A stretch of DNA of 64,000 bases, from the NCBI RefSeq assembly GCF_006716345.1, contig NZ_VFOX01000001.1:2542001-2606000 (forward strand). Direction: 5' to 3'. The notes beneath the pieces were generated by a model. That model ran no database searches. It was not told the DNA's origin and saw only the letters and a program-made list of their open reading frames with translations. The stretch is from Microbacterium saperdae. Its GTDB lineage: Bacteria; Actinomycetota; Actinomycetes; Actinomycetales; Microbacteriaceae. Position numbers and translations under genes: made by a program. Each line of letters begins with the position of its first letter. The first letter of the stretch is position 1. This document shows, one piece after another, positions 15,685 through 31,437 of this stretch.

Positions 15685-17070
15685 TCAGCTGAGCTCTCCG
15701 CCCTCCAGCAGCTCCGTGACGAGGGCCGCGATCGCCGAGCGCTCCGAGCGCATCAGCGTCACGTGTCCGAAGAGGTCGTGACCCTTGAGAGTCTCGATCA
15801 CGCTGGCGATGCCGTCGTGGCGGCCGACGCGCAGGTTGTCGCGCTGACCGACGTCATGGGTGAGGATCACCCGGGAGTTCTGCCCCATCCGGCTCAGCAC
15901 CGTCAGGAGCACGTTGCGCTCCAGCGACTGCGCCTCGTCCACGATCACGAAGGCGTCGTGCAGCGAGCGCCCACGGATGTGCGTGAGCGGGAGCACTTCG
16001 AGAAGCCCACGTTCGATCACCTCTTCGACCACGTTCCCCGAGACCACGGAGCCGAGAGTGTCGAAGACCGCCTGGCCCCACGGGCCCATCTTCTCGCCCT
16101 GGTCGCCGGGGAGGTAGCCGAGTTCTTGGCCGCCCACCGCGAAGAGCGGTCGGAACACGATGATCTTCTTCTGCTGCTGCCGCTCCAGCACCGCCTCCAG
16201 TCCGGCGCACAGCGCGAGCGCCGACTTTCCCGTGCCCGCACGCCCGCCGAGCGACACGATGCCGACCTCTTGGTCGAGGAGCAGGTCGATGGCGATCCGC
16301 TGTTCTGCGGAACGCCCGTGCATCCCGAAGATGTCACGGTCACCGCGGACCAGGCGGTACTCGCCGTCTCCTGTCACGCGTCCGAGTGCGGAGCCCCGTT
16401 CGGAGTGGATGATGAGTCCGGTGTTGATCGGGAGGCCGCGAGCATCCTCGCTGATCCCGACCTCGCTCTCGTAGAGGTCGCTGATGTCGTCGCCGGAGAG
16501 GTCGAGCGTGGTGATCCCGGTCCACCCCGAATCCACCGCCTGCTCCGCGAGGTACTCCTCCGCACGCAGCCCGAGAGAGGCCGCTTTGACACGCATCGGC
16601 AGATCCTTCGAGACGATCGTGACGTCCTGGCCGTCCTGGGCGAGGTGCATCGCGACGGAGAGGATGCGGGTGTCGTTGTCGCTGAGCCGGATGCCGGCGG
16701 GGAGGACAGAGGAGTCCGTGTTCGCGAGCTCGACGCGCAGCGTGCCGCCTTCGCCGACCTCCACAGGGAAGTCCAGCCTCCCGTGCTCGATGCGCAGGTC
16801 GTCAAGGTGCCGCAGCGCCTGCCGGGCGAAATAGCCGATCTCCGGGTCGTGGCGCTTGCCCTCGAGCTCCGAGATCACGACGACCGGGAGCACCACCGAA
16901 TGCTCGGCGAAGCGGAAGAACGCCTGCGGATCGCTCAACAGGACGGACGTGTCGAGCACATACGTCCGCAGAGCCTGGTCAGGGTCTGCGGAGGCTGCTC
17001 GCCTGGCCGTCGTCTTACGGGTGGACTGCTGCGCGGTGCTGGTGGACTGCTGCGCTGTACGTGAGGTCAC
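15685..17070 (-). CDS. PIN domain-PhoH fusion, predicted RNase/RNA-dependent ATPase
   Basis: This 461-residue protein has an N-terminal PIN nuclease domain ([19 protein letters not shown], residues about 35-170) fused to a PhoH ATPase with Walker [14 protein letters not shown] and Walker [12 protein letters not shown]. The same layout occurs in mycobacterial PhoH2 and Bacillus YlaK, where helicase and RNase activity have been reported. The first 25 residues are low-complexity, with TAQQST repeated. The GTG has GGGAGTGGG upstream. A 16-base inverted repeat lies just upstream of the gene. Confidence 0.92.
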
Positions 17071-17084
17071 GACCCACTCCCGAC

Positions 17085-17100
17085 CCGGGAGAATTCCCGG
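17085..17100. promoter_or_regulatory. inverted repeat CCGGGA-GAAT-TCCCGG upstream of phoH
   Basis: A perfect 6-4-6 inverted repeat lies 15-30 bases before the phoH start, in the predicted 5' leader or promoter. It may be an operator or an RNA hairpin; nothing identifies a ligand or regulator. Confidence 0.3.
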
Positions 17101-17230
17101 CTATTCGAACGAGTCGACCAGGGGCCACGAGTCGCTAACCTGAAGGCCGACCCGACCGGGCTCCTTGCCCGATGCCTAGAAGGTACGACCAGTCACCGAC
17201 ATATCCGTGCGTCGACACGCCAGCGATTCG

Positions 17231-18361
17231 TTACGCGCTGATGAACGTCTCGTTGCCGAATGCCGCCAATGCCTCGTCGAGGAGCGCGATGGTGCTCGGA
17301 TCGGTCCCGGCGTGCGGTGCGACACGCACGGATGCGCCGCGCGCCGTGACCACGACCCCGGCGTTCGCGAGCGCCGCGGCCAACCGGGCGGGCTCCTGCG
17401 GGGTCAGCCCCACGATCCCGGCGCGCCGCTCGCGCTCACGCGGTGAGGTGACCGTGATCCCGTGCCGATCCGCGATCTCCAGGATCGCATCGACCTGCTC
17501 TGCGAGCCGCTTCTCGATCTCCGCGACGCCGGCGTCGCGCACATCCCGCGCGCCGATCGCCAGACGTCCCGCGGCGAGGGTGTCCGCTCCGCTCAGGGTG
17601 TACGCGCGGGCGGACGCCGCCGGAGCAGGCAGTTCGTCGACGGCGAGACCGGCCCCCGCCGTGCCGGTGATCCCGCTCAGCACCGGGGTGATCCGCTCTC
17701 TGGCCCGCGGGGAGAACCAGGCGAATGCCGTGCCCCGTCCGGCGCGCAGCCACTTGTAGCCGTGTCCGACGACCACGTCGGCGGCGGAGTAGTCGACATC
17801 GATCATGCCGAAGGACTGCACGGCATCGACGATCAGCAGTCGATCGGGCCCGATGAGCTCACGCAGCGCGTCGAGGTCGGCGCGGAACCCGGTGCGGAAG
17901 TCGACGTGGCTCACGGCGAGGGCGGTGACGTCGTCATCCAGTGCCTCTGCGACCGCGTCGGCGGTGACACGACCGTCGTCGGGCGTGATCCAGCGCGGCA
18001 CCAGTGCACCGTGCGACGCGGCCCCCGCGCGCTCCAGGGTCAGGCTGACGCTGGGGAACTCCGCCGCGGACGCGACCACCGTGCCCGTCATCCCGTACAG
18101 CGCGTGCGCGAGTCCCTGCGTGGACGACGGCTGCAGAGTGACATCCGCCGCCTCTGCGCCGAGAAGCTCGGCGACGATCTCCTGGGCCTGCCCCAGACGC
18201 TCCCCCACCAGCGCGAGCGATGACGGTCGTCCGCTGCCGAGCAGGTCGGCATCCGCGAAGATCTCCTCGCGGACCGACGGCGAGAGCGGTCCGAACGCCG
18301 CCCAGTTCAGGTACCCGGGCTCACTGTCGAAAGTGTCGAGGTAGTCGTCGAAAGCGCTCAC
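17231..18361 (-). CDS. class V PLP-dependent aminotransferase / cysteine-desulfurase-like enzyme
   Basis: This 376-residue member of the class V aminotransferase fold has IVDAVQSFG as the Asp that contacts PLP and VVGHGYKWLRAGRGTAF carrying the Schiff-base lysine. It resembles the selenocysteine lyase/isopenicillin-epimerase-like group, whose substrates are poorly defined. No catalytic cysteine loop of IscS type is evident. The GTG six bases from CACAAT is chosen; an in-frame start 11 codons earlier is possible. No operon partner is clear, since the next gene on the strand starts upstream with its own promoter. Confidence 0.85.
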   Translation of the reverse strand: MSAFDDYLDTFDSEPGYLNWAAFGPLSPSVREEIFADADLLGSGRPSSLALVGERLGQAQEIVAELLGAEAADVTLQPSSTQGLAHALYGMTGTVVASAAEFPSVSLTLERAGAASHGALVPRWITPDDGRVTADAVAEALDDDVTALAVSHVDFRTGFRADLDALRELIGPDRLLIVDAVQSFGMIDVDYSAADVVVGHGYKWLRAGRGTAFAWFSPRARERITPVLSGITGTAGAGLAVDELPAPAASARAYTLSGADTLAAGRLAIGARDVRDAGVAEIEKRLAEQVDAILEIADRHGITVTSPRERERRAGIVGLTPQEPARLAAALANAGVVVTARGASVRVAPHAGTDPSTIALLDEALAAFGNETFISA

Positions 18362-18367
18362 CGCGTC

Positions 18368-18373
18368 ATTGTG
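18368..18373 (-). promoter_or_regulatory. -10-like hexamer CACAAT of the class V aminotransferase gene
   Basis: CACAAT plus six bases plus GTG, a one-base variant of the leaderless pattern. Confidence 0.4.
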
Positions 18374-18412
18374 ACACGTCGCCGCCCTCGCCACCGCCCC
18401 CGGTGTGACTGC

Positions 18413-19195
18413 TCAGCGCCCGAAGCGCCGATCGCGATCCGCGTAGTCTCTGATGGCGCGCAGGAAGTCGACCTGACGCAGGTCCGGTCCGAGTGCCTCG
18501 ACGAAGTAGAACTCGCTGTGGGCGCTCTGCCAGAGTAGGAAGTCGCTGAGCCGCTGCTCGCCGCTCGTGCGGATGACGAGATCGGGATCCGGCTGACCAC
18601 CGGTGTACAGATGCTCCCCGATCATCTCGGGTGTGAGGTGCGCCGCGAGGTCCTCCAGCGTGCCGCCGGACGCCTCGTGCGCGACGATGATGCTCCGCAC
18701 GGCGTCGACGATCTCGTTGCGTCCTCCGTAGCCCACCGCGAGGTTCACGTGCAGTCCGGTGTGCCCCTTGGTGCGCTCCTCCGCGTCGGAGAGGACGCGT
18801 GCCAGCTCGGGCGGAAGGATGTCGGCGCGTCCCACATGCTGGACGCGCCAGTTCCCCTCGCGCGAGAGCGCCTCGGCCAGCTCCGCGATGATCTCGATCA
18901 GATCGGCCAGTTCTGCGGAGTCGCGTTTGCGCAGATTGTCGCTCGAGAGCAGGTACAGCGAGACGACGCGGACGCCGAGCTCGTCGCACCATCCGAGGAA
19001 CTCGTGCATCTTGGCTGCACCAGCCCTATGCCCCTCTGCGGGCGTGGTGTAGCCGAGCTGTCGGGCCCACCGACGGTTGCCGTCGATCATCATGGCGACG
19101 TGGTGCGGTACGGAGGCGGAATCCAGCTGGCGGCGCAGCCGATTGCTGTAGAGCCGATACAGCGGCCCTCGCCCCTGGCTCTCGCGTGAAATCAC
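18413..19195 (-). CDS. uppS: cis-prenyltransferase (polyprenyl diphosphate synthase, UppS family)
   Basis: This 260-residue enzyme condenses IPP onto an allylic diphosphate in cis. The catalytic Asp38 is in MMIDGNRRWAR. Other family blocks are GHRAGAAKMHEFLGWC, SSDNLRKR, NLAVGYGGRNEIVDA and the C-terminal DLVIRTSGEQRLSDFLLWQSAHSEFYF (given here in part: RTSGEQRLSDF, QSAHSEFYF). Actinobacteria often have two paralogues, one making a short (Z)-farnesyl product. The sequence alone does not decide which this is. The GTG lies six bases from TAGCGT. Confidence 0.9.
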   Translation of the reverse strand: MISRESQGRGPLYRLYSNRLRRQLDSASVPHHVAMMIDGNRRWARQLGYTTPAEGHRAGAAKMHEFLGWCDELGVRVVSLYLLSSDNLRKRDSAELADLIEIIAELAEALSREGNWRVQHVGRADILPPELARVLSDAEERTKGHTGLHVNLAVGYGGRNEIVDAVRSIIVAHEASGGTLEDLAAHLTPEMIGEHLYTGGQPDPDLVIRTSGEQRLSDFLLWQSAHSEFYFVEALGPDLRQVDFLRAIRDYADRDRRFGR

Positions 19196-19201
19196 CTCCC
19201 T

Positions 19202-19207
19202 ACGCTA
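19202..19207 (-). promoter_or_regulatory. -10 hexamer TAGCGT of uppS
   Basis: TAGCGT plus six bases plus GTG, leaderless arrangement. It is divergent from the hemolysin III-like gene. Confidence 0.55.
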
Positions 19208-19264
19208 CCGTGCCCGCCCCCGGGAAGCTGAGGATATGTACGGCCGCGGGCATGCGGGCCCGCC

Positions 19265-19270
19265 TAGAGT
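19265..19270 (+). promoter_or_regulatory. -10 hexamer TAGAGT of the hemolysin III-like gene
   Basis: TAGAGT plus six bases plus GTG, leaderless arrangement. Confidence 0.55.
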
Positions 19271-19276
19271 GAGGCT

Positions 19277-20008
19277 GTGAGCACACCCGAATCCGCCGGC
19301 GCTGATCTTCCCCAGCTGCCGCTCCTCGATGCTGCGGCCGCCGATGAATCGGCGGCGGAGATCCGCCCGACCTGGCGGGGATGGATCCATGCGGGCACCT
19401 TCCCGGTCGCCATCGTCGCCGGCATCGTGCTGATCATCGTCGCCCAGGGCGGTGCGGCGAAGTGGTCGGCCGCCGTGTTCATGGCGAGTTCGCTGCTCCT
19501 CTTCGGCAACTCCGCCCTGTACCACCGCTTCGACTGGAAGCCCCGCGTCAAACTGATCCTGAAGCGGATCGATCACGCCAACATCTTCCTGCTGATCGCC
19601 GGAACCTACACACCGCTCGCCACGCTGGCCCTTCCCCCGGAGAAGGGCACGCTGCTGTTGAGTCTCGTCTGGGGCGGCACCGTTGTCGGGATCCTGTTCC
19701 GCGTCTTCTGGATCCACGCCCCGCGGTGGCTCTACGTGGCCCTCTACCTGCTCATGGGGTGGGCTGCCGTGATGTTCATGGCCGACCTGTTCGCGGCCAA
19801 TGTCGCCATGATGATCCTCGTGATCGTCGGCGGACTGCTCTACACCGGTGGCGCCATCGTCTACGCGCTCAAGAAGCCCAATCCGTGGCCGGGCCACTTC
19901 GGCTTCCACGAGATCTTCCACGTCTGCACGGTCCTGGCGTTCCTCTGCCACTGGACCGCGTGCCTGCTCATCGCGCTCGAGCCGCTGTCCCCCTCACTGG
20001 GGGCATGA
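19277..20008 (+). CDS. trhA: hemolysin III / TrhA family membrane protein
   Basis: This 243-residue protein has about seven hydrophobic segments and the PAQR-like conserved residues: NSALYHRFDW in the second segment and HEIFHVCTVLAFLCHW near the end, with histidines that bind metal in the wider superfamily. TrhA-type proteins are membrane homeostasis factors. The hemolysin name is historical and there is no toxin signature. The N-terminal 35 residues are polar and Ala/Asp-rich. Expressed alone, divergent from uppS. Confidence 0.88.
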   Translation: MSTPESAGADLPQLPLLDAAAADESAAEIRPTWRGWIHAGTFPVAIVAGIVLIIVAQGGAAKWSAAVFMASSLLLFGNSALYHRFDWKPRVKLILKRIDHANIFLLIAGTYTPLATLALPPEKGTLLLSLVWGGTVVGILFRVFWIHAPRWLYVALYLLMGWAAVMFMADLFAANVAMMILVIVGGLLYTGGAIVYALKKPNPWPGHFGFHEIFHVCTVLAFLCHWTACLLIALEPLSPSLGA

Positions 20009-20135
20009 CCGCTCTGACGGTTGCGAGTCCGTGGAAGCGAATCGTCTGACACGGTTCGTAACAGGATGACGAAAGAGGTTCTCTCGGCCGTTAGGTTCGA
20101 GAAGCCCGCCCATCCTCGTCCTCCGGAGTCCCTTC

Positions 20136-20993
20136 ATGCGTCGAACCAGCCGCGTCATCGCCCTGTCCGCAACCACCGCCCTCGTCGCCGTCCTCGCGGC
20201 CGGCTGCTCCTCGGCGCCTTCGACTTCGACGGACGACGGCTCGACCGCGTCGGACAAGAAGACGATCACGATCGGCTTCAACCCCGGACCCTACCTCGAG
20301 ATGTTCACCGAGGGCATCGAACCGATCCTCGAAGACGAGGGCTACACGGTCGAGACGAAGGACTTCACCGACGGCGTCATCGTCAACGTCGCGCTCAGCG
20401 ATGGCGAGATCGACGCGAACATCATGCAGCACCCTGTCTATCTCGAGGCGATCAACCAGCAGGAGGGCCTCTCCAACGCCGCGCTCGTCCAGGTACCGGG
20501 ACCGCCGATGGCGCTGTTCGGCGGCAAGAAGGCCACCCTGGACGAGGTCGGGAACGGGTCTACTGTCGCCGTGCCGAACCAGCCGGCGAATCAGTACCGT
20601 GCGCTCAGGGTGCTCGAGTCCATCGACTGGGTGACCCTGTCTGACGACATCGACCCGGCCACGACCTCGTTGGCCGACGTCGTGGAGAACCCTCACGATC
20701 TCTCGTTCGTGGAGATGGAGAACGCACAGCAGGTCCCTGCTCTGGCGGATGTCGACTACAGCGTGATCCAGGGCAACTTCGTCGTCTCCGGAGGCCTGAA
20801 GCTCACCGACGCGCTGCAGCTCGAAGATCTGACGGACGAGTTCTCCGTCGTCGTCGCCGTCGATGAGAAGAACCTCGACAGCGATTGGGCGAAGGCGATC
20901 GAGGCCGCGTACGAATCGGATGCGTTCGCCGACTACATCGCATCGAACTCGCAGTACGACGGCTACCACCTCCCCGCCGCTCTGGAGCGCTGA
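20136..20993 (+). CDS. metQ: methionine-type ABC transporter substrate-binding lipoprotein (NlpA/MetQ family)
   Basis: This 285-residue lipoprotein has the lipobox LAAGC with Cys24 and an Ser/Thr/Asp linker. The mature MetQ domain begins at KKTITIGFNPGP and contains DGEIDANIMQHPVYLEAINQ and NPHDLSFVEMENAQQVP. Family members bind L- or D-methionine or related compounds outside the membrane. It is the first gene of a seven-gene unit, with 127 bases upstream in which no S-box or SAM riboswitch is recognisable. Whether the ligand here is methionine or a sulfur ribosyl compound cannot be read from sequence. Confidence 0.92.
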   Translation: MRRTSRVIALSATTALVAVLAAGCSSAPSTSTDDGSTASDKKTITIGFNPGPYLEMFTEGIEPILEDEGYTVETKDFTDGVIVNVALSDGEIDANIMQHPVYLEAINQQEGLSNAALVQVPGPPMALFGGKKATLDEVGNGSTVAVPNQPANQYRALRVLESIDWVTLSDDIDPATTSLADVVENPHDLSFVEMENAQQVPALADVDYSVIQGNFVVSGGLKLTDALQLEDLTDEFSVVVAVDEKNLDSDWAKAIEAAYESDAFADYIASNSQYDGYHLPAALER

Positions 20994-22054
20994 TGACGGC
21001 GTCGGGTCAGGAGCTCGGCGCCGCGGCGACCGACCTGACGCCCGCCGTCCGACTGGACGGGGTGACGCGTCGGTACGGTCGCGGCGGTGGACAGCTCACC
21101 GCCCTCGACGATGTCACCGTCGCCGTCCGCCGCGGAGACATCTTCGGCGTGATCGGGCACAGCGGCGCCGGCAAGAGCACTCTGATCAGGATGGTCAACG
21201 CGCTGGAGGCGCCGACGTCCGGGATCGTCCAGGTGGATGGAGTCGATCTCGCCTCGCTGTCGACTGCGGAGCTGCGCGCGGCGCGTAAGCACACCGCCAT
21301 GATCTTCCAGCAGTTCCAGCTGCTGGACACGGTGACGGTCCTGGACAACGTGGCCCTGCCCCTGCGACTCGACGGCATCGGACGACGCGAGTCCCGCGAG
21401 CGCGCCACGGAGGCGCTGGAATTCGTGGGGCTCGGTTCGCGGCTCGGAGCATACCCCGGCCAGCTCTCCGGCGGACAGAAACAGCGCGTCGGCATCGCAC
21501 GTGCGATCATCCGCAATCCCGCGGTGCTGCTGTGCGACGAGGCGACGAGCGCGCTGGACCCGTCGACGACCCTCCAGATCATCGACCTTCTCAAAAGGGT
21601 GAACCGAGAGTACGGAACGACGATCCTCGTTGTCACACATGAGATGGACGTGATCAAGAACCTCTGTCACTCCGTTGCCGTGATGGAGGGCGGGCGCATC
21701 GTCGAGCAGGGCACGGTGATGGACGTCTTCGTGCGGCCGCAGACGGCCATCGCACAGGCATTCGTGGGAACCGTCATCCCGCATGAGCTTCCGGACCGGG
21801 TACGTCGTGCCGTCGGCGGCCACCCGCTGTGGCGCCTGAGGTTCATCGATGAGGAGGTGACGAGTCCGATCGTCGGCGCTCTCATCTCCGACTTCGGCCT
21901 GCGCGTCAATATCCTGCACGCCGATATGACCGACATCCAAGACCGCACGGTCGGCCACATGGTCGTCCAGGTCGAGGGTGAGGACAGCCAGCGCGAGGCC
22001 GCCTTCAGCTACTTGGCCGACAGGATCGTCAGCGTCGAGGAGGTCAACCTGTGA
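20993..22054 (+). CDS. metN: methionine-type ABC transporter ATP-binding protein with NIL domain
   Basis: This 353-residue protein starts at the ATG sharing a base with the metQ stop. Walker A GHSGAGKS is at residues 55-62, the signature is LSGGQKQR and Walker B is VLLCDEATSALDP. The C-terminal 80 residues form a NIL (ACT-like) domain, LRFIDEEVTSPIVGALISDF. In MetN this domain binds methionine and shuts transport when the internal pool is high. Its presence supports a methionine-like substrate. The stop overlaps the permease start (GTGA). Confidence 0.94.
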   Translation: MTASGQELGAAATDLTPAVRLDGVTRRYGRGGGQLTALDDVTVAVRRGDIFGVIGHSGAGKSTLIRMVNALEAPTSGIVQVDGVDLASLSTAELRAARKHTAMIFQQFQLLDTVTVLDNVALPLRLDGIGRRESRERATEALEFVGLGSRLGAYPGQLSGGQKQRVGIARAIIRNPAVLLCDEATSALDPSTTLQIIDLLKRVNREYGTTILVVTHEMDVIKNLCHSVAVMEGGRIVEQGTVMDVFVRPQTAIAQAFVGTVIPHELPDRVRRAVGGHPLWRLRFIDEEVTSPIVGALISDFGLRVNILHADMTDIQDRTVGHMVVQVEGEDSQREAAFSYLADRIVSVEEVNL

Positions 22055-22710
22055 TCGACACTCTGCTCACTCCCGAGCTCTTCTTCGAAGCGCTCGGCGA
22101 GACGCTCTACATGCTGGGGATCTCCCTCTTCTTCGGGTCGATCCTCGGTATCCTCCTCGGCATCGCCGTGGTCGTGACGCGACCCACAGGAGTGCTCCCC
22201 AATGCGGTGGCCTCCTTCGTGCTCAACGCGTTCATCAACGTCGTCCGGTCACTCCCGTTCATCATCCTGCTCGTCGCGATCCTCCCGTTCACCCGGCTGG
22301 TCGTCGGAACCTCCATCGGGGTGAACGGGGCGCTGGTACCCCTCATCCTCATGGTCGCGCCCTACATCGGACGACTCGTCGAGAACTCCCTGCTCGAAGT
22401 GCCCGAGGGCATCGTGGAAGCCGCGAAGTCGATGGGTGCGACGCCCGTGCAGATCTTCGTGCGGTTCCTCCTCCCGGAGGCACGGGGATCTCTCGTGCTC
22501 GCCCTCACGACTGCGACGATCGGTCTTCTGGATGCGACCGCCATGGCGGGAACAGTGGGCGCCGGCGGAATCGGTGATCTCGCGATCTCCTATGGCTATC
22601 AACGATTCGACGGGATCACGATGCTCGTCACCGTGGTGACGCTCGTCGTCATCGTGCAACTCATCCAGTTGTTCGGCACCCGCCTCGCCCGGAAGCTGCG
22701 ACGTCGATGA
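22051..22710 (+). CDS. metI: methionine-type ABC transporter permease
   Basis: This 219-residue permease has about five membrane segments and the EAA-type loop EAAKSMGATPVQIFVRFLLPEA that contacts MetN. The order metQ-metN-metI differs from E. coli metN-metI-metQ but the components are the same. It overlaps metN by four bases at its start and the aminotransferase gene by four bases at its end. Confidence 0.94.
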   Translation: MIDTLLTPELFFEALGETLYMLGISLFFGSILGILLGIAVVVTRPTGVLPNAVASFVLNAFINVVRSLPFIILLVAILPFTRLVVGTSIGVNGALVPLILMVAPYIGRLVENSLLEVPEGIVEAAKSMGATPVQIFVRFLLPEARGSLVLALTTATIGLLDATAMAGTVGAGGIGDLAISYGYQRFDGITMLVTVVTLVVIVQLIQLFGTRLARKLRRR

Positions 22711-23867
22711 CGGCGCTGCGCGCGGCGGCACGGGTCGAGAACCTGCCTCCGAACTTCTTCGGTGCGCTCGACGGCGCCGTCGCGCAGGCGCGTGCCGCCG
22801 GCTTGGACGTCATCGACGTGTCCAAAGGCAACCCCGATCTCCCGACCCCGGCACACATCGTCGCGGCGATGCAGTCCGCGGTGGCTGATCCCGTCAACCA
22901 CGGGTACCCCGCGTACCGGGTGCGCCCGGGGCTCGCGCATGCGATCGCAGCGCGGTACCGGGAGGATCATGGCGTGCTGCTCGATCCGGAGACCCAGATC
23001 GCCGCGTTCCACGGCTCGCACGAGGCACTGATGGCTGCGATCCTCGGACTCGTCGACGCTGGACGGACGCTCGTGGTGCCCGATCCCGGGTACCCCGCCT
23101 ATGCGTCAGCGGCGGAACTCGCTGGCGCCGAGCTGCGCACCGTTCCGCTGAATCGAGCACGCGGGTATCAGCCGGATTTCGCCACGCTGAGTGATCTCGA
23201 CGACGCTGCGGCGATCTTGCTCAACTACCCCCACAACCCCACCGGAGCAGTCGCCACCCTGTCGACGTTCGACCACGCGATCACAGCGAGCGCACGACTT
23301 GAGGCAGTCCTCATCAATGACTTCGCCTATTCATCGCTCGGGTACGACGCACGCCCGCTCTCGGCGCTGGCGGTCGACATGACCAGAACGGTCGAAGTCT
23401 CCACGCTCTCCAAGACCTACAACATGGCAGGATGGCGGATCGGCTTCGCCGCCGGTTCTGCCCCTCTCATCGCGGCGATGCGGAGGTACCAAGCACACGC
23501 ATTCAGCACCATCTTCGGAGCGACGCAGGATGCTGCGGCCGCGGCTCTCGCCGGAGACCAGGAGGTCGCGCACGACCTCGTGGCCACGTATCTCGCCCGC
23601 CGTGACCTCGTCGTGGAAGCGCTCTGCGCCCAGGGGTGGGACGTGGTCTCCCCCGCAGGAACCTTCTTCGTGTGGGTGGGGCTCGACGGTGACGACGATG
23701 TCGCCCTCGCGGAGCGACTGCTCAACGAACACGGCGTCGCCGTCGCCCCCGGGAGCGGCTTCGGCGCTGGTGGCGCCGGGTTCATCCGCATCAGCCTCGT
23801 CCATCCGCTGGCGCGTCTCCAGGAGCTCGTCGAGCGGCTCGGCGCAGCCAAGCGGGCGCGGCGATGA
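22707..23867 (+). CDS. class I/II PLP-dependent aminotransferase
   Basis: This 386-residue fold-type I enzyme has NYPHNPTGA (substrate carboxylate and PLP contact), LINDFAYSSL (Asp to the pyridine N), and STLSKTYNMAGWRIGF with the Schiff-base lysine. The Arg that binds the alpha-carboxylate lies in FIRISLVHP. It resembles LL-diaminopimelate/YbdL-type aminotransferases. E. coli YbdL is a methionine aminotransferase encoded beside ybdH, and a YbdH-like gene follows here with a four-base overlap. A methionine or homocysteine transaminase role is inferred from that context, not shown. Confidence 0.88.
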   Translation: MTALRAAARVENLPPNFFGALDGAVAQARAAGLDVIDVSKGNPDLPTPAHIVAAMQSAVADPVNHGYPAYRVRPGLAHAIAARYREDHGVLLDPETQIAAFHGSHEALMAAILGLVDAGRTLVVPDPGYPAYASAAELAGAELRTVPLNRARGYQPDFATLSDLDDAAAILLNYPHNPTGAVATLSTFDHAITASARLEAVLINDFAYSSLGYDARPLSALAVDMTRTVEVSTLSKTYNMAGWRIGFAAGSAPLIAAMRRYQAHAFSTIFGATQDAAAAALAGDQEVAHDLVATYLARRDLVVEALCAQGWDVVSPAGTFFVWVGLDGDDDVALAERLLNEHGVAVAPGSGFGAGGAGFIRISLVHPLARLQELVERLGAAKRARR

Positions 23868-24994
23868 CGGGTAAGCGCGTACGGCCGGGGCCCGCGATCG
23901 TGCACTCCGGCGTCGGCGCGATCGACGAACTACCCGGGCTGCTGCATCGAGACGGCGTCACGCGGGTGCTCTGGGTGCACGGTGCACGCGCTCTTCGTGC
24001 CGCCACGCCGTTTCTCCCTGATCTCAGCGCTGTCGAGATCATCGACGCCGGATTCACGAGCGAGTGCAGCCCCGCCGAGATCACCCGCCTTCAGGGTCTC
24101 GCCACCAGCAGGGGCGCGGACGCGGTGCTGGGGATCGGCGGCGGAAAGGTGCTCGACACCGCCAAGGCGGTCGGGCATTCGCTCTCCTTGCCCGTGTATC
24201 TCACGCCGACGCTCGTCAGCACCTGCTCGGGATGGTCGGCAGTCAGTGTCTACTACGACGAGGAGCATCGTCACCTCGGTCATGAGGTCTGGGACACACC
24301 GACGCGCGCACTGCTGCTGGATCCGCGGATCGTGTTCGATTCGCCCGTCGCGCTCTTCGTCTCCGGCATCGCGGACACCCTCGCGAAGCACGTCGAGACC
24401 CGCGCGGCATTCGATCGAGCCGATATCGCAGACACGCTGACGTCGTTCGGCGGGCTGGCCGCTGCGCGCTGCGGAGAGCTGGTCTCCAGCCACGGCATCG
24501 CGGCAGTCGACGACATGCGCCGAGGAGTCCGCAGTGATGCGTGGACCATGCTCGCCGAGGCGTGCGTGATCACGGCGGGCCTCGTCGGCGCACTCGGCGC
24601 CGAAGCCGGCAGCGCCACCGCCGCGCATCCGATCGGTGACGCGCTCAGCGCCTTCGCGCAGACCCGCGATCTGCTGCATGGGGTGAAGGTCGCTTATGGC
24701 ATCCTCGTGCAGCTCGCATATGAACGCCGATGGGAGGAGATCGACCGCATGAACGAGCTGTACGCGGCTCTGGGCCTCCCCCGCTCGCTGGCGGACCTCG
24801 GCCTCTCGGCGCAGGATCCCGCAACGCTCGACACGATCGCCGAGATCGCGACAGGAGAGCATTCGAGCGCCCGTCTCCTCGATCCGCCGCCGTCTGCCGC
24901 CGATCTCATCACCACCATGCACGCCCTCGAAGACCGTCAGCGCCGACTCGACCGCGTGGTGCTCGCTCACCATTCCCTCGCCGCCCCCCGTTGA
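23864..24994 (+). CDS. iron-containing alcohol dehydrogenase, YbdH/HcxA-like hydroxycarboxylate dehydrogenase
   Basis: This 376-residue enzyme is of the glycerol dehydrogenase-like group. The nucleotide loop is [15 protein letters not shown]. The metal site is formed around [12 protein letters not shown], an HPIGDALS block and [13 protein letters not shown]. From memory, [19 protein letters not shown] and W-x-x-SVWYND are distinctive of E. coli YbdH (HcxA), which reduces 2-oxo acids such as 2-oxobutyrate, and close equivalents occur here ([11 protein letters not shown]). It could reduce the oxo acid made by the upstream aminotransferase or a diketone from LuxS. Overlaps the aminotransferase by four bases. 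Confidence 0.85.
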
Positions 24995-25007
24995 AAGGAA
25001 CATCCCC

Positions 25008-25481
25008 ATGGCAGAAGTCGAAAGCTTCACCCTCGACCACACCGCGGTTCTCGCGCCCTATATTCGCCGGATCGCGGTAGAGCAGGGGCCGCATGGAGAT
25101 GCGATCTCGAACTTCGACATCCGCTTCGTGCAGCCCAACGAGGGCGAGATTCCGACTGCCGGCCTGCACACCATCGAACACCTGCTGGCGAGCCTGCTGC
25201 GTGACCACCTGAACGGCGTGATCGACATCTCCCCGTTCGGCTGCCGAACAGGATTCCATCTCATCACCTGGGGCGAGCCGGCTGTCGCCGACGTCGCATA
25301 TGCCGTGCGCGAGAGCCTCGCCGCGATCGCCACCGACATCACGTGGGAACAGGTCCCCGGCGTCGATGAGATCAGCTGCGGGAACTACCGCGACCACAGC
25401 CTGCACAGCGCACGCGAATGGTCGAAGCGGATCCTCGCTCAGGGGATCAGCCTGGACGCGTTCTCCCGCGTGGGCGTCTGA
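25008..25481 (+). CDS. luxS: S-ribosylhomocysteine lyase
   Basis: This 157-residue LuxS splits S-ribosylhomocysteine into homocysteine and 4,5-dihydroxy-2,3-pentanedione, the AI-2 precursor. By position against Bacillus LuxS, every key residue is present. Metal ligands are H54, H58 (HTIEH) and C124 (SCGNYRDH), the base is E57, the second catalytic Cys is C79 (FGCRTGF), and the substrate contacts are S6 and R39. The loop before C79 is about five residues shorter than in Bacillus. AAAGGA precedes the ATG and the gap from the dehydrogenase is 13 bases. Its place inside a transporter/oxidoreductase operon is unusual. Confidence 0.95.
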
Positions 25482-25482
25482 C

Positions 25483-26253
25483 GTGTTCGAGGAGCTTCAC
25501 GGACGCGTGGTCCTGGTCACCGGCGGGGCGAGCGGCATCGGGGCAGGCATCGTCGATGCCTTCCACGAGGCGGGGTCGACTGTCGTCGGAGCTGACCTCA
25601 GCACTCCGGAGGGAGGACTGCACGAGGGCCGGGAGCGGGAATGGTCGGTGCGTCTCGATGTGTCGGATGAGAACGCTGTGGACACCGTGCTCGATGCGAT
25701 CGAAGAGCACGTGGGGCCCGTCGATGTCGTCGTGATGGCCGCCGGGACCTCGACGCTGGCTTTCGCGACGGAGACCACCGAGCAGGAGTGGGATCGCAAC
25801 CTCGACGTCAATGCGAAGGGTTCGTTCCTGGTGGCCAAACATGTGGCGAAGCGCCTCGTCGCCGCCGGGCAGAAGGGGCGGATCATCTTCATCGCCTCTC
25901 AGGCCGGCAAGAACGGCTATCGCGGAATGACCGCGTACGTGGCGTCGAAGCACGCCGTACTCGGGGTGACGAAGAGCATGGCGGTCGAGCTGGCTCCGCA
26001 CGGCATCCTCGTGAATGCGATCTGCCCGGGGATCATCGAGACGCCGATGAAGCACCGCGAGCGCATCGAGGGCGGCACCATCCGCGGGATGTCAGCCGAG
26101 GAGATCGCCGCAGAGGATCGATCCCAGGTTCCGCTCGGACGGACGGGCACGCCGCGGGACGTGGCGGGAGTCGCCCTGTTCCTGGCAAGCGATCTCGCCG
26201 GCTATATGACGGGTCAGGGCCTCAACGTCACCGGAGGAATGACGATGCACTGA
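25483..26253 (+). CDS. short-chain dehydrogenase/reductase
   Basis: This 256-residue classical SDR has the NAD(P) motif TGGASGIGAG, then DVVVMAAG and the catalytic Ser (IASQAGKNG) with the YxxxK pair in AYVASKHA. The ADLS acid after strand 2 favours NAD(H). It resembles sugar-alcohol and diacetyl/butanediol dehydrogenases. The GTG starts one base after the luxS stop, so it is part of the luxS transcript. Reduction or oxidation of dihydroxypentanedione or its cyclic forms is a testable inference; the substrate is not known. Confidence 0.88.
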   Translation: MFEELHGRVVLVTGGASGIGAGIVDAFHEAGSTVVGADLSTPEGGLHEGREREWSVRLDVSDENAVDTVLDAIEEHVGPVDVVVMAAGTSTLAFATETTEQEWDRNLDVNAKGSFLVAKHVAKRLVAAGQKGRIIFIASQAGKNGYRGMTAYVASKHAVLGVTKSMAVELAPHGILVNAICPGIIETPMKHRERIEGGTIRGMSAEEIAAEDRSQVPLGRTGTPRDVAGVALFLASDLAGYMTGQGLNVTGGMTMH

Positions 26254-26278
26254 ACGCTCACCGTCACACCTACTCGGC

Positions 26279-26563
26279 TTACGAGCGTTCGTCGCCCTCG
26301 TCACCCTCGCGGACGATCGGCAGGTCGGCGTCCGTCTCGGTGGCCTCGTCGGCGGCGAGCGCGGCCTCTTCGGCATCGAGCTCGTCGCGCACCTCTTCGC
26401 GGTACCGCACGCGGCGGATGCGACGGTTCATGTCCCAGATCAGCAGGATCACCGCGAGCACGATGATGACGATCACCGCGAACCCGACGAAGCCCGGAGT
26501 GACGGCCTCGGGGGCCACGGTCATGGTGGGCGTCGGCATCGGTGTCTCGGTCAGAGCGAGCAT
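26279..26563 (-). CDS. small single-pass membrane protein
   Basis: This 94-residue protein has one helix (about residues 24-43, GFVGFAVIVIIVLAVILLIW), a basic segment MNRRIRRVRYREE after it, and a very acidic C-terminal tail rich in Glu and Asp. The topology is N-out/C-in by the positive-inside rule. It is convergent with the luxS operon and divergent from the DUF4307 gene. The family is not recognised, but such proteins accompany DUF4307 genes in related genomes from memory. Confidence 0.72.
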   Translation of the reverse strand: MLALTETPMPTPTMTVAPEAVTPGFVGFAVIVIIVLAVILLIWDMNRRIRRVRYREEVRDELDAEEAALAADEATETDADLPIVREGDEGDERS

Positions 26564-26631
26564 GAGTCGGCCTTTCGTGCGCAGGTCGCATAACCTGGAA
26601 CTACCAGCCTAACGACCGGAAGACCCCTCCC

Positions 26632-27018
26632 GTGACGACAGCAGAACAGCTCGATGACCGCTACGGCCGTACCCGGCGACGTCGGGGACCCTGGATCGTG
26701 GGAATCGTCATCGCCGCGTTGGTGGTCGGGGCGTTCAGCTGGATGACCGTGAGCCAGTCCATGTCGTCGGTGGATGCCGATGATCTGGGCTTCGATCTGG
26801 TGGACGAGCACACCGTGGAGGTCCGGTTCCAGGTGACCGGAGTGCAGGGCAAGGATGTCGTGTGCATCGTCGAAGCGCTCGACGAGGAGTTCGGCGTCGT
26901 CGGCTGGAAGGTCGTCGACATCGCCGCAGGAGACAGCCATTCGAAGGCCGTCTCCGCCACCGTGCCCACCGTCGCCGCCGCCACCACAGGTTTGGTGAAC
27001 ACCTGCTGGGTCGCTTAG
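26632..27018 (+). CDS. DUF4307 family membrane protein
   Basis: This 128-residue protein has an N-terminal LDDRYGRTRRRRGPW motif typical of DUF4307, one membrane helix (about residues 24-42) and a small extracytoplasmic beta-rich domain ending in VNTCWVA. The function is unknown. In Actinobacteria it is commonly the neighbour of greA, as here, where greA starts 97 bases downstream. The start is GTG with GGAAGA upstream. Confidence 0.85.
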   Translation: MTTAEQLDDRYGRTRRRRGPWIVGIVIAALVVGAFSWMTVSQSMSSVDADDLGFDLVDEHTVEVRFQVTGVQGKDVVCIVEALDEEFGVVGWKVVDIAAGDSHSKAVSATVPTVAAATTGLVNTCWVA

Positions 27019-27115
27019 ACTCATCGCAGACAGACGACGCCCTGGCACCGTGCCGGGGCGTCTTGGCATATCCCCCGCCGTACGCGGCCGGGATACCGAA
27101 AGAAGGAGCTTCGTC

Positions 27116-27604
27116 ATGTCCACCGACGCTCAGGTTCCCTTCCTCACGCAGGAAGCGTATGACCGGCTCGTCGCCGAGCTGGAGCACCTGTCGACCTTCG
27201 GTCGCGACGAGATCGCCAAGCGCATCGAGGCCGCCCGCGAAGAAGGCGACCTCAAGGAGAACGGCGGCTACCACGCTGCGAAGGATGAGCAGGGCAAGCA
27301 GGAGGCCCGCATCCGTACGCTGGAAGGTCTGCTGAAGACCGCGAAGGTCGGAGAGGCGCCCGCCAGCCGTGGCATCGTCGAGCCCGGCACGGTCGTCACG
27401 GCCGTCGTGGCAGGCGGCGAAGAGGTCTTCCTGCTCGGCAGCCGTGAGATCGCCGCCGGCAGCGACCTCGACGTCTACAGCGAGGCCAGCCCGCTCGGCC
27501 AGGCCATCCTCGGCCTCAAGGTCGGCGAGAAGTCTTCGTACGAGGCGCCGAACGGCCGCTCGATCGCTGTCGAGATCGTGAACGTCGAGACGTACACCGG
27601 CTGA
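27116..27604 (+). CDS. greA: transcription elongation factor GreA
   Basis: This 162-residue factor rescues backtracked RNA polymerase by stimulating transcript cleavage. The N-terminal coiled coil carries the acidic tip sequence REEGDLKENGGYHAAKDEQ. The C-terminal FKBP-like domain has EVFLLGSREI and SPLGQAILGLKVGEK. A very good AGAAGGAG ribosome binding site sits before the ATG; an earlier in-frame start would add 22 poorly conserved residues. A strong hairpin follows. Confidence 0.96.
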   Translation: MSTDAQVPFLTQEAYDRLVAELEHLSTFGRDEIAKRIEAAREEGDLKENGGYHAAKDEQGKQEARIRTLEGLLKTAKVGEAPASRGIVEPGTVVTAVVAGGEEVFLLGSREIAAGSDLDVYSEASPLGQAILGLKVGEKSSYEAPNGRSIAVEIVNVETYTG

Positions 27605-27620
27605 TCCGCCCCGATACACG

Positions 27621-27656
27621 AGAACGCCCCTCCTGCCATGGCTGGAGGGGCGTTCT
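27621..27656. terminator. terminator between convergent greA and ilvA
   Basis: AGAACGCCCCTCC (27621-27633) pairs with GGAGGGGCGTTCT (27644-27656), a 13-bp stem with a ten-base loop. It stands between two gene ends and can act in both directions. Confidence 0.85.
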
Positions 27657-27678
27657 GCGTTCCGTCGCGCGAGAGTGC

Positions 27679-28908
27679 TCAGTCCGGAACGAGCATCGGC
27701 TCGAATCCGGCACGGCGGAGCGTGTCGAGAGTGTGCTCGGAATGCTCGGGACCGCGTGTCTCGACGCTGAGCTCGAGGATCACGTCGCTGATCTGCAGCC
27801 CGTGGCCGTGCCGCGTGTGCATCGCCTCGATCACGTTGGCACCGGCCTCGGCGATGAGCTCCGACACGCGCGCCAGCTGCCCAGGACGGTCGGGAAGAGG
27901 GATGCGGATCGTGAGGTACCGGCCCGAGGCAGCCAATCCGTGGGAGACGACGCGCTGCAGCAGGAGCGGGTCGATGTTGCCGCCGGACAGCACTGCCAGA
28001 GTCTTTCCCGTGGCGGGCACCTTGCCGGCGAGGATCGCGGCGACCGCGGCGGCACCGGCGGGCTCGACGACGACCTTGGCCTGCTCGAGCAGCACCAGGA
28101 TCGCGCGGGCGAGATCGTCGTCCGAGACGGTGACGACCTCGTCGACGTGGTCCTTGATGATGTCGAACGGTATCGCTCCGGGCCGGGCGACGAGGATGCC
28201 GTCGGCGATGGTGGGGCGCGTGACGATGTCGACGGGGTGACCGGCCGCGAGCGACGGCGGCACGGCGGCGGCGTTCTCCGCCTGCACACCGATGATGCGC
28301 ACCGTGCGACCGAGCTCGGCCGCGCGGGCCTTCACCGCGGCGGCGACTCCGGCGATGAGCCCTCCGCCGCCGATGCCGAGAACGATCGTCTCGACGTCGG
28401 GGGCGTCCTCGAGCAGTTCGAGTCCGAGCGTGCCCTGACCGATCACCACATCGCGGTGGTCGAACGGCGGGATGAGCACCGCACCCGTGCGCTCGGCGAA
28501 CTCGGCGGCGAGTCGGAGCGAGGTCGCGACCGTCTCCCCCTCGAGCACCACGTCGGCACCGTAGCCGCGCGTGGCGAGCAGCTTGGGGACGGGAACGCCC
28601 AGCGGCATGAAGATCGTCGCCGTGATGCCGAGCTCCTGAGCCGCGAGCGCGACTCCCTGGGCGTGGTTGCCGGCGGATGCCGCCACGACGCCGCGCGCGC
28701 GCTCCTCCGCGCTGAGGCGGGACAGCCGGTATGCGGCACCGCGGATCTTGAAGGATCCGGTGCGCTGCAGGTTCTCCATCTTCAACACGACGGGAACACC
28801 GAGAATGTCGGAGAGGGCTCGCGACGGCAGCGTCGGCGTGTGCGAGATCACCTCAGCCAGACTCTGAGCTGCGTACTCGAACTCGGCCAGGCTGGGGACT
28901 TCGCTCAT
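27679..28908 (-). CDS. ilvA: threonine ammonia-lyase (threonine deaminase) with ACT domain
   Basis: This 409-residue PLP enzyme deaminates threonine to 2-oxobutyrate, the first step to isoleucine. The PLP lysine is in TGSFKIRGAAYRLS, the phosphate loop in GIGGGGLIAG, and the serine stretch in VLSGGNID. A single ACT-like domain occupies roughly residues 325-409. That length is nearer the catabolic or short biosynthetic forms than the two-ACT E. coli IlvA. The start overlaps the stop of the upstream AI-2E-family gene by four bases. Confidence 0.93.
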   Translation of the reverse strand: MSEVPSLAEFEYAAQSLAEVISHTPTLPSRALSDILGVPVVLKMENLQRTGSFKIRGAAYRLSRLSAEERARGVVAASAGNHAQGVALAAQELGITATIFMPLGVPVPKLLATRGYGADVVLEGETVATSLRLAAEFAERTGAVLIPPFDHRDVVIGQGTLGLELLEDAPDVETIVLGIGGGGLIAGVAAAVKARAAELGRTVRIIGVQAENAAAVPPSLAAGHPVDIVTRPTIADGILVARPGAIPFDIIKDHVDEVVTVSDDDLARAILVLLEQAKVVVEPAGAAAVAAILAGKVPATGKTLAVLSGGNIDPLLLQRVVSHGLAASGRYLTIRIPLPDRPGQLARVSELIAEAGANVIEAMHTRHGHGLQISDVILELSVETRGPEHSEHTLDTLRRAGFEPMLVPD

Positions 28909-30101
28909 TGATTCCTCCGTCTCCGCTCACGCGGTACTGTGCTCCAGATCAGGTCTCCGCTCGGGTCGACGCCGGTGCGCCACGACCCCGAACTCAACGT
29001 CACGGCGGCGACGTTGACGAACGCCGCCAACGGCACCGCGAAGAGGGCGCCGGGGATGCCGGCGATCATGGCGCCACCCGCGACGACGAGGACGACGGCC
29101 AGCGGATGGACCTTCACAGCGGACCCCATCAGGATCGGCTGCAGGATGTGTCCTTCGAGCTGCTGCACGGCGAGGACGACGAGGAGCATCCACAGCGCGA
29201 TCCAGGGACCGTTGTAGACGAGGGCGAGGAACACCGCGACGGCGCCCGTGACGACAGCACCGACGATCGGGATGAACGAGCCCAGGAACACCAGCACCGC
29301 GACGGGCAGCGCGAGCGGCACCTGCAGCAGGAAGGCTCCGAGACCGATGCCGACGGCATCGATCGTGGCGACGAAGAGCTGTGTCCTGGCGTAGTTGACG
29401 ATGGTCTTCCAGCCGTTGCGCGCGGCACCGTCGACCGCCTGACGTCCGTTGCGCGGGAACAGCTTGAGCGTCCAGCGCCAGATGCCGGCACCGTCGGCCA
29501 GGAGGCAGATGAGGATGAACAGGGAGAGCACGGCTCCCGTGGCGACATGGCCGACGGTCGTGCCGATCGCCAGCGCGCCCGACCACAGCACCTGGGCCTG
29601 CTCGTTGAGCATGTCGAGGCCCTGCTGGAGGTAGTCGGCGATCTGGGTGTCGGAGAGATTGAGCGGCCCGTCATGGAGCCACACCTGGAACTGCTCGAAC
29701 GCCTCTGTCGAGCTCTTCTGCACATCCGGCAGCTCGACGCGTACCTGCCAGATCACGAGCCAGAGGAGTCCACCGACGATGGCCGCGGTTCCCAACAGGG
29801 AGACGAGGATGGCCAACCACCGCGGGAAACGGTGCCGCAGCATCCAATCGAACGCCGGCCACAGCAGAGCCGTGATGAGGATGCCCACCATGAGCGGGAT
29901 CACGAGCAGCTTGAGCAGCATGACCAGCCAGATGAACACGCCGATCGCCGCGGCGATCAACAGCAACCGCCAGGCATAGCCCGCGGCGACCCGCAGAGTG
30001 ATCGGCACCGCCTCATCGGCTTCGGTCGTCACCGTGCGGTCTGTCGTGACCGGGCGCGGACGGAAGAGATCCCTCAGCCTGGGCCGCTGCTCGTCGCTCA
30101 T
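28905..30101 (-). CDS. AI-2E family transporter (permease PerM-like)
   Basis: This 398-residue membrane protein has about seven to eight segments, and its conserved second half contains FLGSFIPIVGAVVTGAVAVFLALV and QQLEGHILQPILMGSAVKVHPL. Members include AI-2 exporter TqsA, but also Na+/H+ antiporters and many uncharacterised proteins. The family name is therefore no proof of AI-2 transport despite luxS lying 3 kb away. It is cotranscribed with ilvA (four-base overlap). The ATG lies six bases from TAGACT. Confidence 0.86.
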   Translation of the reverse strand: MSDEQRPRLRDLFRPRPVTTDRTVTTEADEAVPITLRVAAGYAWRLLLIAAAIGVFIWLVMLLKLLVIPLMVGILITALLWPAFDWMLRHRFPRWLAILVSLLGTAAIVGGLLWLVIWQVRVELPDVQKSSTEAFEQFQVWLHDGPLNLSDTQIADYLQQGLDMLNEQAQVLWSGALAIGTTVGHVATGAVLSLFILICLLADGAGIWRWTLKLFPRNGRQAVDGAARNGWKTIVNYARTQLFVATIDAVGIGLGAFLLQVPLALPVAVLVFLGSFIPIVGAVVTGAVAVFLALVYNGPWIALWMLLVVLAVQQLEGHILQPILMGSAVKVHPLAVVLVVAGGAMIAGIPGALFAVPLAAFVNVAAVTLSSGSWRTGVDPSGDLIWSTVPRERRRRNQ

Positions 30102-30107
30102 CGCCCA

Positions 30108-30113
30108 AGTCTA
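30108..30113 (-). promoter_or_regulatory. -10 hexamer TAGACT of the AI-2E transporter/ilvA unit
   Basis: TAGACT plus six bases plus ATG, facing the divergent YcaQ promoter about 50 bases away. Confidence 0.55.
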
Positions 30114-30165
30114 CGGCGATCACGGGAGCGCACGACGCCGTGAGACGGATGTCGATGGCCGGCGA

Positions 30166-30171
30166 TACGCT
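30166..30171 (+). promoter_or_regulatory. -10 hexamer TACGCT of the YcaQ-type glycosylase gene
   Basis: TACGCT plus six bases plus GTG. It selects the GTG over an in-frame ATG 180 bases upstream. Confidence 0.55.
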
Positions 30172-30177
30172 GACGGC

Positions 30178-31437
30178 GTGACAGACACTCTCAGTCCTGC
30201 CCAGGCACGTCGGATGGCGCTGGCCGCACAGGGCTTCACGCGCGCACGTCCGACCGCGGTCTCGGCGGCGCACATCCATCGCATGATGGACCGCATCGGA
30301 GTGCTACAGATCGACTCGGTCAACGTGTTCGCGCGCTCGCACTACCTCCCGCTGCTGTCGCGACTCGGAGCCTACGATCCCGCACTGCTGGACAAGGTCT
30401 TCCTGTCGCGCACGACGCACTACGTGGAGTACCTGGCGCACGAGGCCACCTTCATCCCGATCGAGGATTGGCCGCTGTGGCAGTTCCGGATGGACGACTT
30501 CCGCCGGCGGTGGTCGGCAGAGGACTCCTGGGTGAGCGCCAACGCCCGCACCGTCCAGTGGGTGCAGGACGAGCTGCGCACGCGGGGCCCGCTCCGCCCC
30601 GCCGACCTCCGCGCCGACGCACCGCGCGAGCGCGGCACCTGGTGGGACTGGGACGACGTCAAGCTCGCGCTGGAGCATCTGTGGCGCACAGGTGATGTGG
30701 CGATCAGCGGGCGCAAGGGCTTCGAGCGCACGTATGCGCTCGCCGAGCAGGTGATCCCGGAGCGCATCCGCGCGCAGAAGATCTCCCGCGCGGAGGCCAT
30801 CCGCACCTTGATCGCCCGCGCCGCGCGCTCCTCCGGTGTCGCCACGCAGTCCGATCTCGCCGACTACTACCGGATCCGCGATCGCGCCGCGGTCACCCAG
30901 GCGATCGCGGACCTCACCGAGTCCGGCGAGCTGCTCCCCGTGCGGGTGCGCGGGTGGGAGCGGGGCGGCCGTCCCCTGGCCGCCTGGCGCCACCGCGATG
31001 GGGTCCTCCCCCATCGGGTCGACGCCGCAGCGGTGCTCACACCTTTCGATCCGGTCGTCTGGTTCCGCGACCGGGCACTGCGTGCGTTCGAGCTCGACTA
31101 CCGCATCGAGATCTACGTGCCTGCCGAGAAGCGTCGTTACGGCTACTACTCGCTCCCCGTCCTCGTCGGCGACCGGATCGTCGCCCGCGTCGACCTCAAG
31201 TCTGATCGTGCGGCGTCGACGCTCCAGGTGCAGTCGGCGTGGTGGGAACCGCAGGCCGCCCCGGAGGACGCGGACCGGATCGCCCGCGAGATCGCCCTCG
31301 CTGCGCGCTGGCAGGGCCTGGAGCACGTGTCCGTGTCGGGCTGGGGCGATGCCGCCGACGCGATCCACGGGTCCCTCCGGGGCGACGTGACGGCATCCGT
31401 GCGACGCCACACGCACGCGAGGGAGCAGTCCGGATGA
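30178..31437 (+). CDS. winged-helix DNA glycosylase of the YcaQ/AlkX family
   Basis: This 419-residue HTH_42-family protein carries the catalytic Q-x-D motif at Q44-D46 (VLQIDSVNV). It is followed by ARSHYLPLLSRLG, then WGxxxxxE-like blocks and a C-terminal part with FDPVVWFRDRALRAFELDYRIEIY (seen as LTPFDPVVWFRDR and YRIEIYVPAEKR). E. coli YcaQ unhooks DNA interstrand crosslinks; the Streptomyces AlkZ branch has QxQ instead, so the Asp here points to the YcaQ branch. The substrate is probably alkylated DNA. The stop overlaps the next gene by four bases. Confidence 0.88.
   Translation: MTDTLSPAQARRMALAAQGFTRARPTAVSAAHIHRMMDRIGVLQIDSVNVFARSHYLPLLSRLGAYDPALLDKVFLSRTTHYVEYLAHEATFIPIEDWPLWQFRMDDFRRRWSAEDSWVSANARTVQWVQDELRTRGPLRPADLRADAPRERGTWWDWDDVKLALEHLWRTGDVAISGRKGFERTYALAEQVIPERIRAQKISRAEAIRTLIARAARSSGVATQSDLADYYRIRDRAAVTQAIADLTESGELLPVRVRGWERGGRPLAAWRHRDGVLPHRVDAAAVLTPFDPVVWFRDRALRAFELDYRIEIYVPAEKRRYGYYSLPVLVGDRIVARVDLKSDRAASTLQVQSAWWEPQAAPEDADRIAREIALAARWQGLEHVSVSGWGDAADAIHGSLRGDVTASVRRHTHAREQSG

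Follow-up and report, generated by a model that had tools for sequence, protein, structure and literature searches.

Whether luxS serves signalling or metabolism is a long-running dispute. The window analysed, a stretch of 64,000 nucleotides from the Microbacterium saperdae genome (4.3 Mb, 2 contigs), was found to carry seven + strand genes at 20136-26253, namely metQ, metN, metI, an aminotransferase (AT) gene, a gene for an HcxA/GldA-type iron-containing alcohol dehydrogenase (Fe-ADH), luxS and a gene for a short-chain dehydrogenase/reductase (SDR) (Table 1). This operon is a real, conserved LuxS metabolic module. With moderate confidence, we regard it as a methionine/S-adenosylmethionine cycle operon around a metabolic LuxS, in which the SDR would be a dedicated reductase of 4,5-dihydroxy-2,3-pentanedione (DPD).

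Conserved linkage of the operon genes to luxS

A sequence-only reading had described a same-strand operon of seven genes with overlaps or gaps of 1-13 bases, which coordinates and Pfam matches confirm. The metQ and metN genes overlap by 1 base, and metN-metI, metI-AT and AT-Fe-ADH by 4 bases each; 13 bases separate the Fe-ADH gene from luxS and 1 base separates luxS from the SDR gene, with its GTG start at 25483.

One set of 299 family genomes was searched in turn with LuxS, SDR, Fe-ADH and AT. LuxS was identified in 53, leaving 246 without luxS. Relatives of the SDR (E <= 1e-60) occurred in four of the 299 genomes, in each case directly 3’ of luxS, and relatives of the Fe-ADH (E <= 1e-50) in three, all directly 5’ of luxS. 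AT relatives (E <= 1e-90) were found in nine genomes, always in luxS operons, lying directly 5’ of luxS in six and separated from it by the Fe-ADH gene in the other three. The 246 luxS-less genomes held no SDR, Fe-ADH or AT relative at these thresholds; the best 6-8 first-look candidates were scored per genome, which should not conceal matches this strong. Among 396 genomes of the phylum, three SDR matches were obtained at E <= 1e-55, two of them beside luxS and both already among the family counts. The grouping of SDR, AT and Fe-ADH genes in luxS operons is non-random and far above chance.

In 80 luxS loci searched by tblastn (the top 80 of 303, and hence biased to close LuxS relatives), the SDR was detected immediately 3’ of luxS at 11, metQNI at five, AT at four and Fe-ADH at two; this set overlaps the genome sets, and the counts are not additive. 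Full gene sets were also found in M. aurantiacum, at 73-93% identity, and in L091, from an Actinomycetales metagenome-assembled genome, where metQ is present twice (42-75% identity). In nine of the 11 loci with an adjacent SDR, it follows luxS without AT or Fe-ADH; among 14 tabulated cassettes, the Fe-ADH was confined to those having both AT and SDR (5/5).

The linkage extends to a second phylum. Enterococcus JM4C encodes, 3’ of luxS, an SDR 55% identical to that of M. saperdae, and SDR orthologues (E <= 1e-70) were identified in 21 of 246 genomes of its order, Lactobacillales. Twenty of these 21 belong to luxS operons: 18 adjoin luxS (matched ends 6-126 bases apart), and metQ intervenes in two. 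A MetQ match was present in 17 of the 20 stretches (25-61% identity to JM4C MetQ, not counting JM4C itself); a MetE-like match was present in 10 of the 20 luxS-SDR stretches, and two tested genes beside metQ belong to the nucleosidase family PF01048. No AT or Fe-ADH match was found in the 1.5 kb flanks of the 20 linked loci. The most divergent SDR-linked LuxS (34-37% identical to the queries) come from genomes G914 and G938 (L197, L198), with three and two luxS genes, where the divergent copy is in a luxS-metQ-SDR stretch. In a LuxS tree of 148 rows, a single clade of the 34 SDR-linked LuxS was rejected (p-AU 1.6e-8); without the two divergent rows (32 of 146) it was still rejected (p-AU 2.7e-5), in a tree retaining other long branches. 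The association of the SDR with several LuxS lineages argues for a shared reaction over shared descent of one locus. The earlier proposal of an unusual LuxS unit of partner genes holds as a conserved unit, its linkage reaching beyond the strain to other family genomes and the second phylum.

Near the operon, trhA ends 127 bases upstream of metQ, and the small gene downstream of the SDR gene is on the opposite strand. Genes named uppS- and trhA-like for their likeness to the two M. saperdae genes near the operon were found in the luxS neighbourhood in at least 20 of 112 usable loci, directly before luxS in at least 14, making this a frequent site of luxS in Microbacterium. Because the gene caller failed to call luxS at 21 loci, these gene-neighbourhood cluster counts are lower bounds; tblastn or genome searches, not the clusters, underlie the linkage counts given above.

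Proposed reduction of the LuxS product

LuxS matches PF02664 at 170.4 bits against a curated cut-off of 27, and residues S6, H11, R39, H54, E57, H58, C79, R80, C124 and R128 are present. All seven of these that the sequence-only reading had reported intact (S6, R39, H54, E57, H58, C79, C124), which we take to be catalytic or metal residues, were found. The SDR belongs to the Pfam adh_short family and has a Rossmann fold with GxxxGIG and Ser-Tyr-Lys, presumably the motifs of a classical SDR; luxS-linked SDRs carry one common signature.

In the proposed scheme, MetQNI would import methionine, a nucleosidase encoded elsewhere would convert S-adenosylhomocysteine (SAH) to S-ribosylhomocysteine, and LuxS would cleave this to homocysteine and DPD, the precursor of autoinducer-2 (AI-2). 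DPD is a reactive vicinal diketone; the SDR would then use NAD(P)H to reduce it to a hydroxyketone, for example a 1-deoxypentulose, so that little would leak as AI-2. AT and Fe-ADH would interconvert and reduce a methionine- or homocysteine-derived keto acid; alternatively, the Fe-ADH might take the SDR product one step onward. Substrates, reaction directions and the effect on AI-2 are all given here as we infer them. Salvage of DPD to 1-deoxy-D-xylulose was considered and dropped, as DPD is 4S and would give an L-series deoxypentulose.

The conserved gene unit makes it very likely that the oxidoreductases serve the LuxS/methionine cycle. For the SDR, the substrate is very probably a product of that cycle, DPD foremost, and action on DPD is now the best-supported reading. 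Supply of S-ribosylhomocysteine is plausible, since the genome encodes, unlinked to the operon, a 185-aa candidate SAH nucleosidase that is 35-39% identical to nucleosidase-family proteins lying up to four genes from luxS in nine other loci (best model PRK05634, 107 against a cut-off of 129).

Several observations weigh against this reading. The SDR has a fold and sequence that suit many ketones, and its matches include FabG and 17-beta-hydroxysteroid enzymes. The third SDR match in the phylum (L174, 44% identical) lies between PfkB sugar kinase genes with no luxS, and an orthologue in Lactobacillales (L200, genome G908) is unlinked, with luxS approximately 25 kb away; its match is split over two frames and it is perhaps a decaying copy. 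No adjacent SDR was found in 69 of the 80 luxS loci (at two of these, L061 and L068, the contig stops immediately after luxS), and at L042 the luxS and SDR genes are 4.6 kb apart. Among the 14 cassettes, AT occurs without SDR in seven and SDR without AT in one; no alternative enzyme replacing the SDR was seen on reading by eye the open reading frames 3’ of luxS in the AT-luxS loci. Absence of the SDR from many luxS loci and cassettes indicates that its step is dispensable. Furthermore, an AhcY-type SAH hydrolase is encoded elsewhere in the genome (recognised by NCBIfam at 381.5 bits against a cut-off of 275; a PF05221 genome search gave weak split matches), so LuxS is not the sole SAH route and its flux may be minor.

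At 2813-11678 of L171 (C2:790000-804000 of the M. saperdae genome), an AhcY-type gene lies beside an amidohydrolase gene weakly matching deoxyadenosine/SAH deaminase models. Its neighbours are luciferase-like monooxygenase, O-acetylhomoserine sulfhydrylase-like and acyl-CoA dehydrogenase-like genes and, by eye, a sugar-type ABC importer, making this a possible sulfur-scavenging locus. A different luxS arrangement was seen in at least 24 loci of the family among L115-L158, where the gene immediately after luxS is of one and the same cluster, the tested member belonging to the nucleosidase family PF01048; 30 of 133 LuxS are only about 40% identical to that of M. saperdae. The lowest-scoring of the family's 53 LuxS (131-148 bits) are those of L160-L162 (G062, G121, G051), two of them on long tree branches.

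Weighing of other explanations

The AT is approximately 30% identical to E. coli YbdL, with 6l1l as closest PDB chain, and scores 179.8 with the methionine aminotransferase model NF006569 (cut-off 420). The M. saperdae Fe-ADH is 31% identical to HcxA and, over 280 aa, 36% identical to GldA, and it falls below the cut-offs of the HcxA/YbdH equivalog NF007880 (202 against 429) and the GldA model NF006941 (205.4 against 336). Across the Fe-ADHs of the five cassettes, identity with E. coli HcxA is 31-36%, at 147-197 bits, and with GldA 34-37%, at 119-162 bits over approximately 300 residues. A C-x-x-W stretch is common to HcxA and these five; solved relatives of the Fe-ADH are named glycerol or glycerol-1-phosphate dehydrogenases, and the D, H and H positions aligned with GldA, which we take to be ligand positions, are retained. 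The Fe-ADH had been called YbdH-like and the ybdL-ybdH pair of E. coli cited; the assignment to an HcxA/GldA-type Fe-ADH and a class I/II aminotransferase stands and clear orthology does not, with identities of about 30-31% and curated cut-offs missed. According to a study of the MetJ regulon, gammaproteobacterial ybdH and mtnE (ybdL) share MetJ control through metboxes (PMC3228920), and a keto acid from methionine or homocysteine is thereby the likeliest concern of AT and Fe-ADH; that they handle such a keto acid is probable, this claim being weaker than that for the SDR.

Genes for 2OG-Fe(II) (2-oxoglutarate/iron) oxygenases were also noted, directly after the AT-luxS cassette of L094 (8559-9590) and in the M. 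saperdae genome (L255, 842-1843), with a similar open reading frame 1.5 kb 3’ of luxS in L112. The gene table of the MetJ paper contains 'pcbC ~oxygenase' (PMC3228920).

The genes might instead be grouped under one methionine/sulfur regulator, the SDR and Fe-ADH reducing AT-made keto acids or methionine-derived carbonyls and not DPD. This would fit the metboxes shared by ybdH and mtnE in gammaproteobacteria, where luxS apparently never has one (PMC3228920), and the Fe-ADH being somewhat nearer to HcxA than to GldA by BLAST score, with the NCBIfam scores tied. A T-box leader (RF00230) before SDR-metQ in L200 (997-2984), one of 20 loci scanned, also favours it, as does the recurrence elsewhere in the genome of an inverted repeat of 15 bases, which most cassettes carry 66-119 bases 5’ of metQ. 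The best match of this repeat reached at least 10 of 12 positions in 13 of 14 cassettes (L091 has none), a score that no more than 5% of shuffles attained in 10 of the 14; having been derived by eye from these very sequences, the pattern is biased, and the repeat is no more than suggestive of an operator. Of five further sites chosen by eye, one lies 63 bases before metQ of a second MetQNI operon, one, the only exact match, precedes a luciferase-like monooxygenase gene, two lie within genes and one lies between HxlR-type and DoxX-type genes. A genome search allowing one mismatch returned 110 sites against 53 for the reversed control, most of them due to chance. In the window, no Rfam riboswitch match was found in 17000-30000 and no tRNA in 17000-31000; scans of 19900-26700 gave no promoter-like site (0.5 expected) and, against 1.7 expected, a single terminator-like one, located on the - strand. 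Against common regulation as the whole account, the SDR mostly follows luxS without AT or Fe-ADH, both in the 11 adjacent-SDR loci and in the 20 Lactobacillales loci, and we regard this explanation as unlikely.

Quorum quenching, whereby the operon would destroy AI-2 imported from other species, had also been suggested. QQ-2, an SDR that likely reduces AI-2, is reported to diminish biofilm formation (PMC4942472). The M. saperdae operon has no AI-2 importer (the genome was not searched for one), and the SDR co-occurs with the host's own luxS, so that endogenous DPD would be met first; quenching is therefore quite improbable.

Scavenging, in which MetQNI would import S-ribosylhomocysteine or homocysteine for catabolism by LuxS, AT and the dehydrogenases, depends on the importer. 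The MetQ lipoprotein, NIL-domain MetN and MetI permease are encoded in one operon and score above the cut-offs of PF03180, PF09383 and PF00528, the predicted NIL domain being confirmed at 76.0 bits (cut-off 24). NCBIfam models for MetN (TIGR02314, 353.1 bits; cut-off 499.7), MetQ and MetI (NF008049, 205.4 bits; just below the cut-off of 212) all match, each below its own cut-off. A second MetQNI operon in the genome (L257, C1:2969500-2975500; positions 154-2833) is 29% (MetQ), 45% (MetN) and 43% (MetI) identical, so the MetQ of the luxS operon could have another ligand, and linkage between MetQ and luxS is seen in each of the two phyla. However, the best PDB chains of MetQ are 7mbz_E (195.8 bits) and 3gxa_A (GNA1946, 194.6 bits), GNA1946-type lipoproteins presumably bind methionine, and the companion MetN retains its NIL domain. 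Import of an extracellular S-ribosyl compound is unsupported, with no pointer to a ligand of that kind, and scavenging appears more improbable still. Chance grouping of unrelated genes, for which the lack of partner genes at most luxS loci speaks and a second luxS elsewhere would have spoken, can be dismissed, as the genome search found one luxS and the linkage is exclusive across several hundred genomes of two phyla.

Table 1. Features of the luxS operon and its upstream region in the window
Feature	Position	Strand	Basis
Operator-like inverted repeat GTTACG-AAC-CGTGTC	20048..20062	-	73 bases before metQ; 11/12 positions of GTTRCG-N3-YGTRAC
metQ, NlpA-type substrate-binding lipoprotein	20136..20993	+	PF03180 188.9 bits; PDB matches 7mbz_E, 3gxa_A
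metN, ABC ATPase with C-terminal NIL domain	20993..22054	+	PF00005, PF09383; TIGR02314 below cut-off
metI, ABC permease	22051..22710	+	PF00528; NF008049 just below cut-off
AT, class I/II pyridoxal phosphate (PLP) aminotransferase	22707..23867	+	PF00155; family relatives exclusively in luxS operons
Fe-ADH, HcxA/GldA group	23864..24994	+	PF00465; close relatives directly 5’ of luxS
luxS, S-ribosylhomocysteine lyase	25008..25481	+	PF02664 170.4 bits; sole genome copy
luxS-associated SDR, proposed DPD reductase	25483..26253	+	PF13561/PF00106; luxS-operon linkage of relatives

Comparison with known systems

No paper on a luxS-linked SDR was recognised among the matches listed, subscription literature lying mostly outside the search; in two luxS surveys, the words 'dehydrogenase' and 'oxidoreductase' were absent from the main text, and one survey examined synteny in 36 genomes. 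If the SDR does reduce DPD, a dedicated SDR with LuxS may possibly be a step that the literature has not recognised. We tentatively suggest that it is a widespread last step of the LuxS pathway, found in two phyla and several lineages, that would allow SAH recycling without AI-2 broadcast, with the actinobacterial Fe-ADH and AT completing a salvage route in some. An SDR gene after luxS would then be a sequence marker of 'silent' LuxS, and would provide a named enzyme for DPD assay and possibly a specific AI-2-removing enzyme. The presence of luxS alone should not be taken as AI-2 production.

The operon resembles the LuxS/Pfs branch of the activated methyl cycle in the checked LuxS residues and in the neighbouring MetQ, with nucleosidase-family and MetE-like genes at other loci, and differs in having a dedicated SDR, AT and Fe-ADH and no nucleosidase gene in the operon. 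E. coli provides a second likeness, with metNIQ presumably under MetJ control. There, importer, aminotransferase (ybdL, mtnE) and HcxA-type Fe-ADH (ybdH, hcxA) form a regulatory set, with luxS lacking a metbox, according to the MetJ study (PMC3228920), whereas in M. saperdae the genes are in a single operon with luxS and the SDR gene, the AT being 30% and the Fe-ADH 31% identical.

Metagenomic QQ-2, which quenches both N-acyl homoserine lactones (AHL) and AI-2, is likewise an SDR proposed to reduce AI-2, with a low activity of 6.0 mU/mg on the furanone; it was found by function and not by luxS linkage, and is likened here by description alone (PMC4942472). 3-Quinuclidinone reductase (PDB 3ak4/3wds) is without the exact SQAGKN and MKxRER stretches, unlike the luxS-associated SDR. 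Human dicarbonyl/L-xylulose reductase (DCXR), which we take to be an SDR, is likened without a claim of orthology; its reported substrates include a vicinal diketone and a pentulose, matching both halves of the chemistry proposed for DPD.

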